From the NCBI RefSeq assembly GCF_019665765.1, contig NZ_CP081150.1:3162001-3226000 (forward strand): 64,000 nucleotides of DNA, written 5' to 3'. Shown one piece after another: positions 2,813 to 33,517 of this stretch. The notes beneath the pieces are model-generated. The model made no database searches and was not told the DNA's origin. It was given only the letters and a program-made list of their open reading frames with translations. Position 1 is the stretch's first letter. Every line of letters begins with the position of its first letter. Made by a program: the position numbers and the translations under genes. This stretch comes from Deefgea tanakiae (GTDB lineage Bacteria; Pseudomonadota; Gammaproteobacteria; Burkholderiales; Chitinibacteraceae).

Positions 2813-4144
2813 ATGCTTATTAAGCGTTTACTCATCAAGATCAAGCATTTACCCACGCGTAGCCGAACCACTTTGGCGCTTTGGTTAGGTGCTGCCTTGG
2901 TCGGTTTGGTGGCTTTTTTATTGGCGACCGCGGCGGAGTGGGCATTTGCGGGTTTTAGTGCATTACAAGCAAAATGGTGGTGGTGGCCTTTATTGTCTTT
3001 GCCATTGGGTGGCATGGGTATTCACTGGCTGATGCAGCACATTGGCGCAGGCGCACAAGGTAGCGGGATTCCTCAGGTTCAAGCCGCACTCCAGCTCAAT
3101 GATAAGCCAGAACAAATTGCACGAATTCTGTCCCCGCGTATCGCCGTAGCGAAATTTATTGCTATTGTGCTGGGCTTAGGTAGTGGCTTTGTACTGGGTC
3201 GGGAAGGGCCAACGGTGCAAATCGGCGCGAGCATTATGTTTGCTTGCCGCAAATTATTGCCGATTGATGATCCTGTGTTCCGGCGACAATTGATTTTGGC
3301 GGGTGGCGCAGCAGGGATTGCGGCAGCATTTAATACGCCGCTGGCAGGGATTGTGTTTGCTTTTGAAGAACTCGCCCGCTCAGTGGAAGAAAAAACCTCG
3401 GGTAAATTACTCGGCGCGGTGATTTTGGCGGGTTTGGTTTCCTTAGCTTTACAAGGTAACTACATCTATTTTGGCAAAATACATGTGCCGCCATTTAGTT
3501 ATTCGATCTTGATCCCCTTAGTATTAATTGCGGTAGCGGCGGGCTTGATTGGCGGGGCTTTTTCTTGGCTTTGTGTGAATGTATCGACTTGGATGCCTTT
3601 TAAAATAAAGGTTTTTAGGCAATACCATCCTTATTATTTTATTGCCAGCATTGGATTACTAATTGCAATTTGTGGCCTATTTGCACCGATTTATGGCAGT
3701 GGTGCCGAGATAACCAGCGAAGTCATCGCTGGACACGCTGAATTAGCATGGTACTTTTTGCCACTGAAATTCATCGGTCAATTGGGCACATTTTTAACGG
3801 GTTTACCGGGTGGGATTTTTGCACCATCCTTAAGTTTGGGGGCGGGGATAGGCAGTTGGTTTGTGCCGCTATTTGATCCCGAACTCAAAATAAAGCTGAT
3901 TGCGATTGGGATGGTCGCCGCACTCGCTGCGATTACACGCGCACCGCTCACATCAGCGATTATTCTGATGGAAATGACCGATGGCCACGATATGGTGATT
4001 TCCATCATGGCCGCAGCGATGATTTCCGCGAGCGTTGCCCGTATTTTTAAAACGAATTTGTATCACGATTTGGCTGAACAAGTGCTTGCCAATTTACGCA
4101 ACACGCAGCCAACGCTAGCTAAAAAGAGAAGTGAAAATGAATAA
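2813..4144 (+). CDS. clcA: CLC-family chloride channel/antiporter
   Basis: Inner-membrane CLC protein, probably a chloride/proton antiporter. The 443-residue product contains the three selectivity motifs in order: [17 protein letters not shown] (with the gating glutamate) and [13 protein letters not shown]. The second glutamate needed for proton transfer in bacterial antiporters appears in FEELARS. No C-terminal CBS domains are visible. It sits between queE and queC and overlaps the queC start by 8 bases, so it is probably co-transcribed with queC although unrelated to queuosine. Confidence 0.92.
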
Positions 4145-9791: not shown

Positions 9792-10319
9792 ATGTCTAAA
9801 AGAATAAACAAAGAAAATGGATTTGTACTTATTACCAGTATCATATTTCTAATAGCAATAACAATAGCTGTAGTGTATGCGGTAAAAAGTGCAACTGTTC
9901 GTGAACACTCAGCGGGAAATAATCGAGCCAGAACTCAAGCATTTGAAATGGCACAATTAGCAATGCTCAGAGCGCAAGCACAATTAACAGAAGATGTTAT
10001 ATTTCCAGCATCTGGTTGCGATAAAGGATTATGCAACAGCAGTACCGCAGATAGTACTTTACTGGATAACAGTACATGGACAACAGGAACTGCAACATGT
10101 GAAATAAATAATACAAGTTGCAATGTTTTATTAGGTGCAAATAAAGTTAAAACAATGAGTATGTCTGGAGTTGCTGCACAACCGCGTTGGGCTATTCGTG
10201 ATTTAGCAAATAATGTTGATGGTGATTGTACTTTTTATGAAGTGTGGGGAAAAGGAACCGGAGCTGAAGCAAATAGTTCTGTGTTATTACATTCGATCGT
10301 TAAAGCATGTGAAAGCTAG
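9792..10319 (+). CDS. pilX: Type IV pilus minor pilin PilX
   Basis: 175-residue prepilin-like protein. Leader ends KENG, then FVLITSIIFLIAITIAVVYA. Thr replaces the usual Glu5, as is common in PilX/GspK-type tip pilins. The motif SATVREHSAGNNRARTQAFE is characteristic of the PilX N-terminal family. Eight bases after pilW and ten before pilY1, so co-transcribed. Confidence 0.85.
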   Translation: MSKRINKENGFVLITSIIFLIAITIAVVYAVKSATVREHSAGNNRARTQAFEMAQLAMLRAQAQLTEDVIFPASGCDKGLCNSSTADSTLLDNSTWTTGTATCEINNTSCNVLLGANKVKTMSMSGVAAQPRWAIRDLANNVDGDCTFYEVWGKGTGAEANSSVLLHSIVKACES

Positions 10320-10329
10320 GAGTAGCATC

Positions 10330-13300
10330 ATGAAAATTAAATTAATGACATTAATAATTAGTGGTATTTTTTCAAGCCAATTAATTAATGCTGCTCCAGT
10401 GCAAAAATTTACTCAAAGTGGTAAAGATCCCTTTACACCACTGTATCAATCATCAAATGAGCCGCCATTAAATATGTTAGTGATTGGTAAAGATCATCGA
10501 CTATTTTATGAAGCTTATAATGATGCATCTGATCTAGATGGTGACGGCTCATACGATGTAGGCTACCAAGGTTGGCAAAATAAAGCCGGCTTTCCTGCGA
10601 CAAAAGGTAATTTCAAAATTGATTACTATGGTTATTTTGATAGCTATAAATGTTATCAATATGCAAATAATCGTTTTGAGCCAATAGAAATCACTACTAA
10701 TAAAAAATGCATGAATAACTCCTCTGCACCATGGAGTGGTGATTATTTAAATTATTTAACTACATCACGGATTGATGCAATTCGCAGAGTGCTCTACGGT
10801 GGAAAACGCAGCAAAGATACTGCGACAGAGACTGAATTAGAACGCGCATTCATTCCTCAAGATGCACATAGTTGGGGTAAAGAGTATCGGAATGTAGCAA
10901 ACGATGGCTATGACATTAGAGAATATACTCCAATGAATTTACCTACAGGCACAACACGTCATTTGTTTGCCAACACCACAATGTGCACACCCAATGCTTG
11001 TAGCACCAGCTTTAACAATCCACCATTGCTAAGAAGTATTAAAAATAGTCCAAGACGTGTTTGGGAATGGCTCAGTATTGAGAGACCTGTGGCCGATGCC
11101 CAATATGCAGATGGTTCAAACAACCGTGTCAATATTCCAACTGGTGATATGACAAATTACAATGTCAGAGTACAAGTCTGCAAACCAGGTTTACTAGAAA
11201 CAGAATGCAAAAAATACGGTACGTCCTATAAACCATTTGGACTTATACAGCAGTATGGTGATGCTGATTCTATGCGCTTTGGTTTAATGAGTGGTAGTTA
11301 TTCTAACAATACACAAAGCGGTGTTTTGCGTAAAAATATTTCAACAATTGATGATGAAGTTGATATCAGCAATGGTACTTTTAAAACTGCAGTTGGGGTT
11401 ATTAGATCAATAGATAATTTTAGAGTTGAAGGTTTTACCAATAGCAGGGAATGGTTTGGATTAGGCGGTAATGACAATGAGTGTTCATATGCAAATGCGT
11501 TTGCAAAACAATTAACGAATGGTAATTGTAGTGGTTGGGGTAATCCAGTCGGCGAAATGATGTGGGAAACCATGCGATATTTTTCTGGAGCAAGTGCAAG
11601 TTCTACCAGTGACGCTAAAGGGAACGCTCTGGGATTATCAGTGTCAGCATGGACTGATCCATATGGAACAAATAATGGTAAACCAAGAAACAGTGTATGT
11701 GCAAAACCAGTAATTACATTGCTATCTGATATAAATCCATCTTTTGATGATGGTATTTCTAATTCAAGTCTAAATGGTAATTCATTTAACCAATCAAATG
11801 CATTAGATCAAATATGGAAAGATGAATTTGGAGCTGTTTCAAAATCAGTAGTTATTGGTTCAAACGGCACAAATAATGATTTAGCACCAACAGTTAAAAC
11901 AACATCTTCCTTTTCAAATTTGAAAGGATTACCTGATGAGCCAGGTAAATTTGGTACTTTTTCTAGTGCTGCAGTTGCTCAATTTGGACGCATTAACGAT
12001 ATAAATGCAGCTGCAGAAAAACAATTAGTTAGTACATTTTCAATTGCATTAGCTTCACCATTACCAAAAATTGAAGTACCAGTAAGTGGTCAAAAAGTAA
12101 TTTTTACACCATTTGCTAAATCACCAGCAAATGGTGGCAGCACAGGAACTTCAGCTAATTATCGGCCCACAAACCAAATTGTTGATTATTATATTGATAC
12201 AATTAGGAATGTTCCTGGATTTCCAACTGATAATTCTGTTAATGGTGGCAGACCATATTATAAGTTCCGTATTAATTTTGAAGATGTAGAATATGGTGGT
12301 GACCATGATATGGATGCTATCGCTGAGTATACGATTAGCTTGCAAAGTGATAATAAAATTTTAGTTAAAGTTGATTCGACTTATGCAGCTGGTGGTATTG
12401 ATCAGCATATGGGTTATGTTGTTTCAGGTTCTACAAATGATGGTGTTTATTTAGTTGTTAAAGACGTTGGTGGCCGAGATGTTAATTATTGGATGGATGC
12501 AAAACCAGCCACAATCAGTTCGGGTAACCCAATCAACTCTGGTACTCCAATAAGCCCAAATGGTAATTTGACCGCATTAACTGATTCTCGAGTTTTTGTG
12601 GCTAATAGTTCAGCAGCAATAGTAACAGATTTGAAATCACCACTATGGTATGCAGCAAAATATGGTGGTTTTGTTGATGATGATGATGATACTAGTCCTA
12701 ATAAAAATATTATGGATAATACAGCTGAATGGGATGTAGATTCAGATGGTATTCCTGATAATTATTTCCTAGTAACTAATCCGCTAAAACTGAAAGAACA
12801 GTTAGATCGAGCTTTTTCACGTATTGATGCAACTAGTCGTTCTAGTGCACCAGTAGGTAGTGCTTCAGGAGGCGGTTCAACCAGTAGTGATTATCGAATC
12901 TACCGAACAGCTTACAAAGCCAATCAATGGAGTGGTAATTTATCAGCATTATCTTTATCAACTTCAACGCTTCAATTAGGAACTGTATATTGGGATGCAA
13001 ATGATCCTTCTAAATTACTTCCACCTAATCAACGAATACTGATGGCATGGAACCCAGACACACGAACAGGTACAGCATTTGATAGTGCTGCCGGCTTAGC
13101 TTATTTATCATCTAGTCAAAAAGCTGCATTAAATTATCCAAGTGGTGATCCAGGTGGTTTCGTAGTTACACCTGTTATGGAAGCACGTTCAAAATATATC
13201 CGTGGTGATAATTCAAATGAAGGAACAACAGTAGGTAAATTTAGGCAACGTGAACGGTTTAGCGAGGAGACAAATTACATTGCAGATATTTTAGATGCTC

Positions 13301-15039
13301 AACCCTATGCGGTAGGCCCCGTTCCTGATCCTACTTATTATTCTGATGCTGATTACTCAACATTTGCCAAAAATTATAAAGATCGCATAAATTTTGTTTA
13401 TGCAGGTGCTAACGGAGGGGTATTTCATGCATTTATGGATGATGTAGTTACTAACCAAGCTGATAACGGAAAAGAACGTTTTGGTTATATTCCATCATTT
13501 GTATTTAATAAATTATACAAATTAGAAGAACAAGCTTATAACCATGAATATTTTTTAAATGGTCAAGCAGCAGTTCAAGATGTGAAAATGAAGTCAGGTG
13601 ATTGGAGTACATTATTAGTTGCTACAGCTGGTTTTGGCGGCAAAGGTGTATTTGCACTTGATATTACTAAGCCATTAGAAGTTGGATCTTCAGAAATACC
13701 AAAATACACTCGTTGGGAATATTTCAATACCACAAATTCTGCACAGGGTAGCCCAGATATGGGATTTCAACCATATAGTCCATTAATTACTAAAATGAAT
13801 GATGGTAAATGGTATTCAATTGTTGGTAATGGTTTTAATAGTGATAGTGGGAATGCTGCTTTGTTTTTACTTGATGTTTCTGGTCCTACTTCATCTGGAT
13901 GGGATTCAGCAACAGCAAAAAAAATATTAATTGATCCATCTATGGCAGGTACCGGTTTTAATGGTCTATCAGCAGCAACTGCTGCGGATTTAAATGATGA
14001 TGGAACTGCTGATGTTATTTATGCTGGAGACATGCTAGGTAATTTATGGAAATTTGATGTTAAAAGTAATAATTCATCTGATTGGAAGATTGGATTAGCT
14101 GGTAAACCTTTATTTAAAGCAACAAGATCAGATGGCGCTCAATCTATTGTAAGCCCTCCCGCAATTGCTTTTGAGAAAAAGGTTGAATCCAATTTAAGTA
14201 TTGTGAATAAACGTTTAATGGTTTATTTTGGTACTGGTAAGTTTTCTGAAGATTGTGATCGATTTGGTGCAACTTGTTCTGGGCAATCTAATACTGCTGG
14301 TTTTTACGGCATTGTAGATAATGAAGAGCAATTGAGTTCCACAGGTGCAGCAACAGGAGATGTATCTTCATTTAACACCATAACAACTTCAAAATTAGTT
14401 CCGCAAAAAATTCAAGCTTATAATAGTAGTGATTTAATTAAATTGAATCAGGCTGGTTTAACACTGAGCGATATTGAAAATTTTAGATGTATTATTCCAA
14501 AAAAAGCAGATGGTACTTTCCAAACTAACTGTACTGATGAAAATTTATATACAAATGCGAGTGTCGAATTCGGTTGGTATACGGATTATCCAGTTTCAGA
14601 GGAGAGAAGTGTAGGGATGCCTCGTGTGTCTGGTGGGACTATATTATTTAATACTTTGATTCCGTATCAAGATTTAACTAATCAATGTTCATTTACTTCA
14701 CGTTCTGCATTAATGGCATTAAATCTTGATGATGGAGGTCAAACTAGACAACGCTTTGCCATGACGAAGAGTAGTGATGGTACTAAGGTTGTTATTGCAA
14801 ATGTAGGTATGATTTCATCTACGTCTACACCAAATGGTACTACCACAGTAAAAGGTGCAACGCCTTCAGGTTTAAATGATGATCGTGGATTTGGTCGTGA
14901 TTATAATAATGTTAAAAAACAAGGAAGTAACCCTTGTGAAAAGGCAATTGACGTTGATCCTTTAGGTAAAGCAACTCAAATTAATGTTTGTGATTCACGT
15001 ATTGTTGTACCTGTAAATTGGACTGAAGTTATTAAATAA
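10330..15039 (+). CDS. pilY1: PilY1/PilC-type pilus tip adhesin
   Basis: Large exported protein (about 1,569 residues) that joins the minor pilins at the pilus tip and controls extension and retraction. The ATG at 10330 gives a signal peptide (MKIKLMTLIISGIFSSQLI, NAAPV) and follows TAGGAG; the longer open frame overlaps pilX. The N-terminus has the betaproteobacterial form NMLVIGKDHRLFYEAYNDAS plus a D-rich loop (DLDGDGSYDVGY, about residue 68). The C-terminal beta-propeller contains the calcium loop DLNDDGTADVIYAGD near residue 1,220, matching the known PilY1 site. A central DVDSDGIPDN is a further possible loop. No obvious VWA domain was seen. Strongly AT-rich. Confidence 0.93.
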   Translation: MKIKLMTLIISGIFSSQLINAAPVQKFTQSGKDPFTPLYQSSNEPPLNMLVIGKDHRLFYEAYNDASDLDGDGSYDVGYQGWQNKAGFPATKGNFKIDYYGYFDSYKCYQYANNRFEPIEITTNKKCMNNSSAPWSGDYLNYLTTSRIDAIRRVLYGGKRSKDTATETELERAFIPQDAHSWGKEYRNVANDGYDIREYTPMNLPTGTTRHLFANTTMCTPNACSTSFNNPPLLRSIKNSPRRVWEWLSIERPVADAQYADGSNNRVNIPTGDMTNYNVRVQVCKPGLLETECKKYGTSYKPFGLIQQYGDADSMRFGLMSGSYSNNTQSGVLRKNISTIDDEVDISNGTFKTAVGVIRSIDNFRVEGFTNSREWFGLGGNDNECSYANAFAKQLTNGNCSGWGNPVGEMMWETMRYFSGASASSTSDAKGNALGLSVSAWTDPYGTNNGKPRNSVCAKPVITLLSDINPSFDDGISNSSLNGNSFNQSNALDQIWKDEFGAVSKSVVIGSNGTNNDLAPTVKTTSSFSNLKGLPDEPGKFGTFSSAAVAQFGRINDINAAAEKQLVSTFSIALASPLPKIEVPVSGQKVIFTPFAKSPANGGSTGTSANYRPTNQIVDYYIDTIRNVPGFPTDNSVNGGRPYYKFRINFEDVEYGGDHDMDAIAEYTISLQSDNKILVKVDSTYAAGGIDQHMGYVVSGSTNDGVYLVVKDVGGRDVNYWMDAKPATISSGNPINSGTPISPNGNLTALTDSRVFVANSSAAIVTDLKSPLWYAAKYGGFVDDDDDTSPNKNIMDNTAEWDVDSDGIPDNYFLVTNPLKLKEQLDRAFSRIDATSRSSAPVGSASGGGSTSSDYRIYRTAYKANQWSGNLSALSLSTSTLQLGTVYWDANDPSKLLPPNQRILMAWNPDTRTGTAFDSAAGLAYLSSSQKAALNYPSGDPGGFVVTPVMEARSKYIRGDNSNEGTTVGKFRQRERFSEETNYIADILDAQPYAVGPVPDPTYYSDADYSTFAKNYKDRINFVYAGANGGVFHAFMDDVVTNQADNGKERFGYIPSFVFNKLYKLEEQAYNHEYFLNGQAAVQDVKMKSGDWSTLLVATAGFGGKGVFALDITKPLEVGSSEIPKYTRWEYFNTTNSAQGSPDMGFQPYSPLITKMNDGKWYSIVGNGFNSDSGNAALFLLDVSGPTSSGWDSATAKKILIDPSMAGTGFNGLSAATAADLNDDGTADVIYAGDMLGNLWKFDVKSNNSSDWKIGLAGKPLFKATRSDGAQSIVSPPAIAFEKKVESNLSIVNKRLMVYFGTGKFSEDCDRFGATCSGQSNTAGFYGIVDNEEQLSSTGAATGDVSSFNTITTSKLVPQKIQAYNSSDLIKLNQAGLTLSDIENFRCIIPKKADGTFQTNCTDENLYTNASVEFGWYTDYPVSEERSVGMPRVSGGTILFNTLIPYQDLTNQCSFTSRSALMALNLDDGGQTRQRFAMTKSSDGTKVVIANVGMISSTSTPNGTTTVKGATPSGLNDDRGFGRDYNNVKKQGSNPCEKAIDVDPLGKATQINVCDSRIVVPVNWTEVIK

Positions 15040-15083: not shown

Positions 15084-15515
15084 ATGTTTAAAAAAACTAG
15101 TGGCTTTACTTTAATTGAATTAATGATTACAGTTGCTGTAATTGGTATTCTTGCTTCAATTGCAATTCCAAGTTATTCAACTTATATTAAAAAAGCAAGA
15201 AGAACGGATGCTCAAACAGTTTTATTGCAGAATGCAAATGTTTTAGAACGAATTTATACTACTGAAAATAAGTATGGTGAATCAGGTGTATGTTCAACTA
15301 GCATAATTACAGAAACTCCAATTGATGGAACAACAAAATATTACGATGTTTCATTAAATAATTGTGAACCATCTACTTATACATTGACTGCAACTCCAAA
15401 AGGAAGTCAATCTAGTGATGGTAAACTAGTTTTAACTCATACAGGTCGTAAAGGCTGGGATAAAAATAATAACGGGACTGTTGATTTTTCAGATGACTCT
15501 GAAAATAAGTGGTAA
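15084..15515 (+). CDS. pilE: PilE-like type IV pilin
   Basis: 143-residue prepilin: MFKKTSG leader, FTLIELMITVAVIGILASIA with Glu5, then IPSYSTYIKKARRTDAQTVL. Cysteine pair in the C-terminal half and the end pattern LTHTGRKGWDKNNNGTVDFS, typical of PilE minor pilins found next to pilY1. GAGGTAAAT precedes the ATG. Its stop codon is immediately followed by the stop of the opposite-strand gene. Confidence 0.85.
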   Translation: MFKKTSGFTLIELMITVAVIGILASIAIPSYSTYIKKARRTDAQTVLLQNANVLERIYTTENKYGESGVCSTSIITETPIDGTTKYYDVSLNNCEPSTYTLTATPKGSQSSDGKLVLTHTGRKGWDKNNNGTVDFSDDSENKW

Positions 15516-16037
15516 TTAAAATTTTATTTCTTTTATACTTGAAATACCTTTACCATTTTTTATTGCAGGTTTAAATTTTAATTTCCCTATTATTGTTTTT
15601 AATTCATTTAATTTTTCATCTTCAATATTTGTTTCTTCAATCTCAATATTTTCAACGATTCCTTTTTCATTGATGTAAATTTTAGCTTTAAAATTTACAT
15701 CAATTTCATTTGTAAACTCAAATTCTTCACTATTTAATAGTATTGCTTCTGAATCTGCATAATTTTCAATTTTTATTAAATTTTCAATATAATCTTGTGA
15801 AATTGTTAAATTATTAACTGCATCAGGTATTGAATCTTTTGTTTTATAGTTATAGGTGTCTATATTATGGTTCAATAATATGTTACGTAGAGGTTTTTCA
15901 AAATTAATTCTAAATTGAAATTTTTCTTTGTTGTAGCCTTGAATATTAAAATTTCCACTATTAAAAAAACAAAGAAAAATCAATAAATGTATATTTATCG
16001 AAATAATAATTGAGATAAAAAGTTTTTTTTTGTTCAT
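15516..16037 (-). CDS. Small TonB-like membrane-anchored protein
   Basis: 173 residues with a single N-terminal hydrophobic helix (LFISIIISINIHLLIFLCFF), a linker, and a C-terminal domain resembling TonB: VNFKAKIYINEKGIVENIEI, then LKFKPAIKNGKGI. TonB proteins transmit proton-motive force to outer-membrane receptors, but the Pro-rich spacer is missing, so a different role is likely. Among the most AT-rich coding sequence in the window. Convergent with pilE with no gap between stops. No Shine-Dalgarno is visible. Function unknown. Confidence 0.65.
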   Translation of the reverse strand: MNKKKLFISIIISINIHLLIFLCFFNSGNFNIQGYNKEKFQFRINFEKPLRNILLNHNIDTYNYKTKDSIPDAVNNLTISQDYIENLIKIENYADSEAILLNSEEFEFTNEIDVNFKAKIYINEKGIVENIEIEETNIEDEKLNELKTIIGKLKFKPAIKNGKGISSIKEIKF

Positions 16038-16100
16038 TGGTTTTTAAAGTAAGTGTGTCTTCTGAAATTATTTTAGGTGATGATGACTTCTCTTTGTAGG

Positions 16101-16292
16101 TTTTCTTTATATATATATTGATAAGTAAAAGATAGTAGTAATAGATAAGGATTGAAATTTCTGTGGATAAGTCTAAAAAACTATATTTATCATATACTTA
16201 AGTTATCCACATGGGCAGGTACAACTCCTGCTGCTGTTGTGGATAAAATGTGCTGCGTTTTACAGCTTTCCTGTGGGTAATACTTATCCACA
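16101..16292. other. oriC: DnaA-box cluster, candidate replication origin (oriC)
   Basis: Four perfect DnaA 9-mers (TTATCCACA or complement) lie at 16162-16170, 16203-16211, 16238-16246 and 16284-16292, and a one-mismatch box at 16272-16280. Left of the first box, after a 17-base spacer, is TAGTAGTAATAG (16133-16144), four DnaA-trio-like triplets in the orientation expected for strand opening. Further left lies an AT-rich stretch (TTTATATATATATTGATAA). The arrangement resembles the left half of E. coli oriC. Sampled G/C counts change sign across this zone. dnaA is not in the window; a DnaA-titrating locus is the alternative. Confidence 0.6.
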
Positions 16293-16384
16293 CCTCTTGC
16301 GAATTCCCCCACATTTTAAGTGACTGATTTATATAGGCTTGTGTGAATAAGCTGTATAATCGCGGGTTTTCTAGGGGATGTTCG

Positions 16385-17290
16385 ATGGCGATTCAGTGGT
16401 TTCCGGGTCATATGCATGTGGCGCAAAAGAAAGTGGCAGAGACAATGGCCAAGGTGGATATGGTCATTGAGATCGTGGATGCGCGGATGCCGCTGTCGAG
16501 TAGTAACCCAATGATTGAGAAGTTGCGCTTGCATCGTCAGCGTCCAGCTTTAAAGATCATCAACAAGACCGACCTTGCCGATCCGAAGCTAAGCCAGCTG
16601 TGGTTGAACTATTTCCGTCAGCAAGCGGGTACTGAAGCGTTGTTGATGGGCGAAGATAACAAAGCTGCTGCTATTAAACAGATTGCTGTGCTGTGTAAAA
16701 AATTAGCCCCGTTCCGCAATGATGCTGAGAAACCGCTGCGGGCGATGATTTTGGGGATTCCTAATGTCGGTAAATCGACTTTGCTCAACACTTTGGCTAA
16801 ACGTAAAGTCGCTAAAGTGGCTGATACACCGGGTGTGACTAAATCGCAGCAACGGATTGAGACGCTAGATGGTGTCATCTTGTACGACACACCGGGTTTG
16901 ATGTGGCCGAAGGTCACGCATGAACCATCTGGTTTCCGCCTTGCTTTGGGCGGTTCTATTGGTCGTAATGCTTATGATGAAGTGGTTGTTGCGTATTTTG
17001 CGATTGAAACGTTGCGTGAACGCTATCCTAAGGAGCTCATGGCACGCTACAAGCTCAGCAATCTGGATGGTACGGTCGATGAGTTGTTTAACTTGATTGG
17101 ACGCAAGCGCGGTGCCTTAATGGCCGGCGGCGTGATTGACGAGCAAAAAACCGCTGATTTGATTATCACGGATTACCGCAGTAAAGCCATTGGCCGGATG
17201 ACTTTGGAAGTTCCAGACGACTTTATCGGTGTTGATTTAAGCTATGGCGTTGATGTGGTTGAGGAAGTTGTTGAGGATAATGACGATTAA
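16385..17290 (+). CDS. rbgA: Ribosome biogenesis GTPase YlqF/RbgA family
   Basis: Circularly permuted GTPase that acts in late assembly of the large ribosomal subunit. The 301-residue product starts MAIQWFPGHMHVAQKKVAET. G-motifs occur in permuted order: NKTD (G4), then GIPNVGKST (G1), then DTPG (G3). The ATG at 16385 follows AGGGGAT and gives the conserved QWFPGHM N-terminus; the longer open frame is rejected. The region immediately upstream holds the DnaA-box cluster. Confidence 0.93.
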   Translation: MAIQWFPGHMHVAQKKVAETMAKVDMVIEIVDARMPLSSSNPMIEKLRLHRQRPALKIINKTDLADPKLSQLWLNYFRQQAGTEALLMGEDNKAAAIKQIAVLCKKLAPFRNDAEKPLRAMILGIPNVGKSTLLNTLAKRKVAKVADTPGVTKSQQRIETLDGVILYDTPGLMWPKVTHEPSGFRLALGGSIGRNAYDEVVVAYFAIETLRERYPKELMARYKLSNLDGTVDELFNLIGRKRGALMAGGVIDEQKTADLIITDYRSKAIGRMTLEVPDDFIGVDLSYGVDVVEEVVEDNDD

Positions 17291-17965: not shown

Positions 17966-18157
17966 ACCATTAGCTTTCCTGCGGTGTTCGCGACGGTTCT
18001 AAATCTTTGAACCGATAAGCTGTATAGCATGTTTGCCAGTCATCTAGACGCCTGTTGTGCGCGTTCCTCGTTGAATGCACCTGATGGCATCTGACCGGCA
18101 ACAACTTGAACCATGGGTTCAAGATGCGAACCGAAACGGCACTGTGGGAAGCCCTCA
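17966..18157 (+). ncRNA. ssrS: 6S RNA
   Basis: Regulator of sigma70 RNA polymerase. It lies in the expected zapA-fau gap. The 3' part ACTTGAACCATGGGTTCAAG matches the conserved 6S arm seen in E. coli (CTTGAACCAAGGGTTCAAG). A closing stem forms between GCTTTCCTGCGGTG (17973-17986) and CACTGTGGGAAGC (18140-18152) with G-U pairs, and a TTCGCGACGG segment follows the 5' arm. Ends are approximate to about ten bases. Confidence 0.88.
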
Positions 18158-28108: not shown

Positions 28109-29643
<1,535 letters not shown>

Positions 29644-29746
29644 AAGAGAAAGACGAACAAATTAAGTACTCACACTCATCGGCTGTAGATTTGAAGAATG
29701 TCGGATTGATTGAGATGAATAATCTGAATTGAGATGACAACGATAT

Positions 29747-29823
29747 GGGTCAGTAGCTCAGTTGGTTAGAGCACCGTGTTGATAACGCGGGGGTCATAGG
29801 TTCGATTCCTATCTGACCCACCA
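29747..29823 (+). tRNA. tRNA-Ile (GAT)
   Basis: 77 bases including encoded CCA; acceptor GGGTCAG pairs with CTGACCC; anticodon GAT at 29781-29783. Standard position in the 16S-23S spacer. Confidence 0.97.
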
Positions 29824-29831
29824 CCTTAGTT

Positions 29832-29907
29832 GGGGGCTTAGCTCATCTGGTAGAGCACCTGCTTTGCAAGCAGGGGGTGAACGGTTCGAGTCCGTTAGCC
29901 TCCACCA
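29832..29907 (+). tRNA. tRNA-Ala (TGC)
   Basis: 76 bases including CCA; acceptor GGGGGCT pairs with AGCCTCC (one G-T); anticodon TGC at 29865-29867. Eight bases after tRNA-Ile. Confidence 0.97.
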
Positions 29908-30276
29908 TTAGTTTGGTCTGGAACTACCTAGTAGAAAATAGAATTCTATGGATTGCACGATGTATTGTGCAGTGTATTTTATTCTGGTTTCTAAAATTAG
30001 AATGATTCACGAAAGTGAATTGAAATATCGATCTTTAACAAAATAGAAGAAGTAATTAATTCCAATAAACATTGTTGTGGAATTAGATTTAGAGATTACT
30101 GCTTGCAGTGATGGATAAATTTGATTTCAAAGTAAATATATTGGGTTGATTGTATCTGTTCAGTTGAATTGGTCTCATGCCAGTTTGATTGAACCGCAAG
30201 TGAAATGAGAACTCACTTGCAAGTCGCAAATACGATTTCAGTAACTTGAAATACGTTTACGTGTTTGAGGTTATAG
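29908..30276 (+). other. Internal transcribed spacer before 23S
   Basis: No gene. It carries a second boxA (CGATCTTTAACAAAA, 30029-30043). At its end AGGTTATAGGATCAAG (30268-30283) pairs over 16 bases with CTTGATCCTATAACCT (33160-33175), the processing stem that encloses 23S rRNA. Confidence 0.8.
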
Positions 30277-33168
<2,892 letters not shown>

Positions 33169-33400
33169 ATAACCTGAAGCGCGTAGGCGACGAAGATATA
33201 GTCAACCCAAAGAAAGTAGAGTGTACGTAAGTGCATGATACGAAAGATAAATACTGAAACAGTGTGGTTGGAAAGTGTAGTATAATTACTTCTTCTATTG
33301 ATTTGATGAGTTAGCGCTGTAGGCGTGTTACTAGAAATAGTGCAGCTGAATGCGATAATTCAAAGTGTGGTGAGAAAACTCACCGCACCAGACAGTTTAA

Positions 33401-33517
33401 TGTCTGGCGACCATAGCGAGGTGGTCCCACTCCTTCCCATCCCGAACAGGACAGTGAAACACCTCAGCGCCGATGATAGTGCGGATTGCCCGTGTGAAAG
33501 TAGGTCATTGCCAGACT
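33401..33517 (+). rRNA. rrf: 5S ribosomal RNA
   Basis: TGTCTGGCGACCATAGCGAG at the start, TCCCATCCCGAACAGGACAG inside, and CCAGACT closing the terminal stem. About 117 bases. Confidence 0.95.

Follow-up and report, generated by a model that had tools for sequence, protein, structure and literature searches.

Positions 16100 to 16320 of the window, the whole 64,000-bp stretch of Deefgea DNA analyzed here, very probably constitute the chromosomal replication origin (oriC) and act in the manner proposed below; this origin lies upstream of rbgA in Chitinibacteraceae and between dnaA and dnaN in sister families. The Deefgea chromosome (Neisseriales, Chitinibacteraceae) is a closed molecule of 3,557,673 bp, of which the window covers positions 3,162,001 to 3,226,000. 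The RbgA-type protein of the source is 94 to 98% identical to those of Deefgea, including the Deefgea salmonis and D. rivuli records. A preliminary description of the window had proposed an origin at this site with no dnaA gene beside it and had named the location of dnaA as a check. The gene was found to start at base 4 of the chromosome, 379 kb away from the cluster of DnaA boxes at 3,178,162 to 3,178,292. The proposal of an origin is now supported by the position of dif, the orientation of the rRNA operons, the strand-controlled skew, and the conservation of the unit upstream of rbgA.

The limits of the unit follow from its conservation and from the profile match described below. It occupies the entire conserved intergenic region between a small open reading frame (ORF) on the minus strand (15516 to 16037) and a plus-strand gene encoding an RbgA/YlqF-type GTPase (16385 to 17290). 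The latter had already been recognized as rbgA, and its product indeed carries a Pfam GTPase domain (MMR_HSR1), the gene name itself being one that we assume from knowledge of the family. Calling the left-hand neighbor TonB-like was not substantiated, as this ORF has no match in Pfam. Beyond it, the origin is bordered by a run of pilus genes that includes a PilY1-type gene (10213 to 15039) and ends with a minor pilin gene (15084 to 15515) matching ComP_DUS, the Pfam family of the DNA-uptake-sequence receptor. To the right, 1.7 kb away from the origin, is the 6S RNA gene (ssrS, 17973 to 18154), flanked by zapA and a ygfA-like gene.

The left part of the unit has the features of a region prone to open. 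According to nearest-neighbor energy, positions 16100 to 16149 form the lowest-stability 50-mer of the 64-kb window and are a putative DNA-unwinding element, with an AT content of 83% over bases 16101 to 16160. Overlapping this tract, a DnaA-trio-like sequence on the plus strand (16133 to 16148) reads TAG-TAG-TAA-TAG, corresponding to TAGTAGTAATAG at 16133 to 16144, and is completed by a TAA (16146 to 16148) that is shifted by one base relative to the preceding trios. The AT-rich and trio-like tracts beside the boxes were thus as previously described. The spacer to the first DnaA box measures 13 bp from the last TAA and 17 bp from the in-register run. Adenines 16134, 16137, 16140, and 16147, which are the middle letters of TAG or TAA trios, are invariant in 17 sequences. 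Among the 32 perfect DnaA boxes found in 2.0 Mb of sampled genome, only two are preceded by at least two TA[AG] trios, namely, the one in oriC and the one in a second element at 3,042 kb.

The DnaA boxes follow in a compact array, and the four perfect boxes and one near-perfect box reported earlier within 131 bp were found again. Box 1 (16162 to 16170, minus strand, reading TGTGGATAA on the top strand) is a perfect, R1-like box that adjoins the trio tract and is kept in 11 of 11 genera. It is followed by an IHF-like site, TATCATATACTTA (16188 to 16200, plus strand), which differs from the consensus WATCAANNNNTTR at one position and is the best match, at +17 after box 1. Box 2 (16203 to 16211, plus strand, TTATCCACA) is perfect and is present in Deefgea, in most Chitinibacter, and in genus g9. 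Box 3 (16238 to 16246, minus strand), also perfect, lies 76 bp past box 1, a spacing held at 76 to 77 bp across genera. The near-perfect box TTACCCACA (16272 to 16280, minus strand, one mismatch) and the perfect box 5 (16284 to 16292, plus strand, TTATCCACA) complete the array. Only 37 perfect boxes, i.e., TTATCCACA or TGTGGATAA, exist in the whole 3.56-Mb genome, and the chance of finding three more of them within 131 bp of a given one is about 4e-10 for each. The cluster is the only one of its kind in the genome, and nothing else in the 2.0 Mb sampled approaches it in density of DnaA boxes. No GATC occurs between 16100 and 16320, and sequestration by SeqA as in E. coli is therefore unlikely there.

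A weaker box, TTATTCACA (16342 to 16350, minus strand, one mismatch), is located shortly upstream of rbgA and is also found in Deefgea and Chitinibacter relatives. This proximity, along with the unit directly preceding the gene, would fit boxes that serve only the regulation of rbgA transcription by DnaA. We give this reading next to no chance, since it leaves unexplained the skew, dif, the rRNA operons, the unwinding element, the trios, and the homology to dnaA-dnaN origins.

The geometry of the chromosome also points to the rbgA site. The only dif-like site in the genome is at position 1,389,229. The point opposite the cluster, at about 1,399,400, is 10 kb away from it, and that opposite dnaA is at about 1,779,000. 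In all seven rRNA operons, the 5S gene points from the cluster toward dif. An origin at dnaA would place the plus-strand operons at 3,195 and 3,302 kb head-on to replication. The operon within the window (28109 to 33516, plus strand, delineated by Rfam matches) had been noted as co-oriented with a fork departing from the site, and the same relationship thus extends to the entire genome. Both perfect parS sites are situated 31 to 34 kb from the cluster. Within 140 kb of the cluster, there are 15 additional perfect DnaA boxes (P about 7e-9). Overall, 19 of the 37 perfect boxes of the genome map to a 230-kb zone, 3,040,000 to 3,270,000, that encloses the whole window. This box-rich zone possibly forms a belt around oriC that titrates DnaA. 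In E. coli, DnaA motifs have been reported to occur at high density in a zone close to the origin (PMC12371093).

The skew analysis covered 2.0 Mb of the genome, sampled in 20-kb stretches. The cumulative skew of this sample, a check that the preliminary description had proposed for the whole chromosome, has its maximum at 1.36 Mb and its minimum at 3.08 to 3.18 Mb, not at dnaA, which is positioned deep within the G-rich arm. A point against an origin at the rbgA site is that the raw cumulative curve is flat from about 2.9 to 3.18 Mb. We located the changepoint more finely with fourfold-degenerate sites, handling plus- and minus-strand genes apart. The 95% bootstrap interval (3,171,001 to 3,199,715) includes the cluster at 3,178,200. 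The likelihood optimum, at 3,190 to 3,196 kb, falls 12 to 17 kb rightward of the cluster, which also speaks against the site, though its advantage is only 3.3 log units. The switch from a C-rich left side to a G-rich right side had originally been deduced from four hand counts of 60 bases each. These counts are exact but not representative of the region. Raw skew in 2-kb steps is mixed on the left side, being G-rich at 10 to 16 kb of the window because of the plus-strand pil genes, and the switch becomes apparent after control for strand and codon position. The earlier conclusion on skew is right but had been weakly supported by these counts.

To what extent this arrangement is shared was examined in the Chitinibacteraceae, where a single clear orthologue of RbgA was found in 43 of 43 genomes. 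The unit precedes rbgA in the representatives of each of the 11 genera, as shown by alignments of 17 to 19 sequences or by profile matches. Its conserved order comprises an AT-rich tract, a TAAGAATAGATAATAAGG-like tract, box 1, the motif TCAAnnnnTTR, and box 3 at 76 to 77 bp. The TCAAnnnnTTR motif has zero to two mismatches to the IHF consensus WATCAANNNNTTR and, in 16 of 17 sequences, keeps an offset of +17 relative to box 1. The rbgA loci of Burkholderiaceae-like genomes, of a Neisseriaceae-like metagenome-assembled genome, and of Vibrio, Photobacterium, and Shewanella have no box cluster upstream of the gene, so the link between rbgA and the origin is not general.

The dnaA locus of the family looks different. 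No perfect DnaA box was detected in the dnaA-dnaN gap of 17 Chitinibacteraceae genomes read, and that of Deefgea G000 contains neither a perfect nor a one-mismatch box. A single perfect box precedes dnaA in 18 of 20 relatives, the stretches of the other two being cut short at contig starts. With this single box upstream and none in the dnaA-dnaN gap, the dnaA promoter was rejected as a candidate origin; the conserved box probably serves autoregulation. In closed or near-closed genomes of the family, dnaA and rbgA are 28 to 412 kb apart. Ten other relatives allowed the antipode of dif to be computed. It falls 5 to 76 kb from rbgA in eight of them; it is 463 and 184 kb off rbgA in G027 and G030, respectively, a point against an origin at rbgA, though dnaA is further off in both. 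The orientation of rRNA operons is consistent with an rbgA origin among closed relatives, for instance in G022 and the Chitinibacter genome G006. In the latter, 412 kb separate dnaA (1,281 kb) from rbgA (1,694 kb). Its skew is negative left of dnaA and remains so up to rbgA; the last negative stretch ends at 1,694,000, at rbgA, and the skew is positive from 1,696,001. The dif antipode of this chromosome is 5 kb from rbgA.

These data also bear on the fallback offered in the preliminary description, according to which the cluster would be a DnaA-titration or reactivation site resembling datA or DARS, with the true origin at dnaA. Sites of this kind consist of clustered DnaA boxes not located at dnaA, and boxes are enriched here over the 230-kb zone. 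We nevertheless regard this explanation as very improbable. The skew, dif, rRNA orientation, and parS sites all exclude dnaA as the origin, and the Chitinibacter skew takes no account of dnaA. Furthermore, no box cluster was found at dnaA in any member of the family checked, and the site combines an unwinding tract and trios with homology to dnaA-dnaN origins elsewhere.

This homology was revealed by a sequence-only profile (R1) built from the Chitinibacteraceae rbgA unit, with which 399 genomes of the order were searched. The Deefgea site was matched from 16110 to 16260 (76 bits, E = 2.6e-22). Beyond Chitinibacteraceae, the profile matched the dnaA-dnaN gap in families f13, f20, f21, and f25, with E values down to 6e-14. 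The dnaA-dnaN flanks of profile matches were confirmed by tblastn with DnaA and DnaN, and by dnaA position in f31. The dnaA-dnaN origins of f13, f20, f21, and f25 share the succession of trio tract, box 1, TCAAnnnnTTR, and box 3 with the Chitinibacteraceae unit, which differs from them in lying upstream of rbgA, 28 to 412 kb from dnaA. By finding dnaA-dnaN gaps in other families, the profile is validated as an origin finder, and the similarity indicates that the rbgA site is a homologue of the standard dnaA-dnaN oriC whose location changed in Chitinibacteraceae. The simplest history that we infer is that an origin formerly at dnaA-dnaN came to lie at rbgA in the ancestor of Chitinibacteraceae, later rearrangements having changed its distance to dnaA.

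The second trio-box element of the Deefgea chromosome is found outside the window at 3,042,097 to 3,042,366, 136 kb from oriC and between proB-like and marC-like genes. It comprises four TA[AG] trios followed by a perfect TGTGGATAA box, is also present in Deefgea G020 (L270:511-667), and is matched by the profile with 36 bits (E = 1e-8), compared to 76 bits at the rbgA site. These properties, as well as its closeness to the flat minimum of the raw skew, could suggest that it is the true or main origin and the rbgA site a secondary one. As a changepoint, however, it falls 75 log units in likelihood below oriC, and it was rejected as the main origin on this ground. In addition, the antipode of dif is 126 kb off this element, compared to 10 kb for the cluster, and no second match was among the matches listed for the Chitinibacter genomes searched. 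That the element is the main origin is thus hardly credible. It is possibly a minor, secondary, or relict origin or a DnaA control site.

Alternatively, both elements could fire, so that Deefgea would initiate at two linked origins. A trio-box unit is present at both places, the skew between them is weak, and close pairs of profile matches also occur in G038, G011, and family f21. Yet the weak skew is not confined to this interval but continues leftward past 3,042 kb as far as about 2.8 Mb, and we consider dual initiation quite unlikely. In G038, a member of genus g10, strong matches flank rbgA on both sides (L271:378-524 and L271:1559-1703), which suggests a duplicated or bipartite origin, and in G011 a second unit lies about 1.5 kb further on. 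Family f21 has a dnaA-dnaN unit and another one 18 to 55 kb away (L255:1501-1654 and L265:1501-1601), and the second unit outscores the dnaA-dnaN one in genome G151. Families f32 and f51 have profile matches at a waaC-like/glycosyltransferase locus (L263:1501-1863, L264:1205-1632, and L273:2604-2990), the genes of which were named by eye. There, dnaA is elsewhere, 408 kb away in the closed genome G242, and the locus possibly represents an independent relocation of oriC. As a tentative scenario with a rather small chance of being correct, origins in this order may have spread by duplication and loss, some chromosomes may fire two linked DnaA origins, and f32 and f51 may have relocated theirs independently.

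For Deefgea, our preferred reading remains that replication starts at the unit upstream of rbgA. From its location, anatomy, and conservation, the skew switch, and the geometry of dif and the rRNA operons, all of which are read directly from the DNA, we infer how the unit would bind DnaA and IHF, unwind, and initiate replication. DnaA would occupy box 1 as well as boxes 2 to 5, aided at the latter by IHF, which would bend the DNA between boxes 1 and 2. From box 1, a DnaA oligomer would extend over the 13- to 17-bp spacer onto the trio-like tract and open the AT-rich tract at 16100 to 16149, where two helicases would be loaded. Forks are predicted to depart both ways and to meet near dif at 1.39 Mb.

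Origins are usually located, and genomes rotated, on the assumption that oriC is beside dnaA. A whole family breaks this rule, and origin predictors based on dnaA as well as coverage-ratio growth estimates may consequently misplace the origin. The Chitinibacteraceae also constitute a natural experiment on the purpose of the dnaA-oriC linkage: with a dnaA distance that varies from 28 to 412 kb between genera, the effect of dnaA dosage relative to origin firing is directly comparable. No description of the origin of Deefgea, Chitinibacter, or Chitinibacteraceae was found in open-licence papers. Origins off dnaA are already known from E. coli and Synechococcus lividus; a family-wide origin fixed at rbgA and homologous to dnaA-dnaN origins was not found in the literature searched.

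In E. coli, oriC is located away from dnaA, is flanked by mnmG-mioC, and is GATC-rich. The Deefgea unit resembles it in being off dnaA and in the order of its parts, with an unwinding element, TGTGGATAA (R1), an IHF or IHF-like site 17 to 18 bp downstream, and further boxes; the IHF site of E. coli is the element at +18 after R1. In contrast, the flanks in Deefgea are rbgA and a small unclassified ORF, the distance to dnaA is much larger, and the unit lacks GATC, with no sign of SeqA/Dam control. The profile gives only a weak, wrongly placed match of 13 bits on E. coli oriC. The bacterial origin unwinding system (BUS) consists of a box, a spacer with a length peak at 10 to 13 bp, and period-3 trios with a conserved middle adenine (Pelliciari et al. 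2021, PMC8287927). The Deefgea unit likewise has a box and period-3 TAG/TAA trios with a conserved middle adenine. Its spacer is 13 bp when counted to the nearest TAA, within this peak, and 17 bp when counted to the in-register trios, from which the last TAA is displaced by one base. Unlike in the BUS, box 1 has no tandem second box beside it. Finally, S. lividus PCC 6715 has an oriC far from dnaA and dnaN (DoriC 10.0, PMC6323995), i.e., a DnaA-box cluster distant from both genes as in Deefgea. While a single genome is named in that case, the place of the origin in Chitinibacteraceae is fixed in 11 genera, next to a constant neighbor gene.
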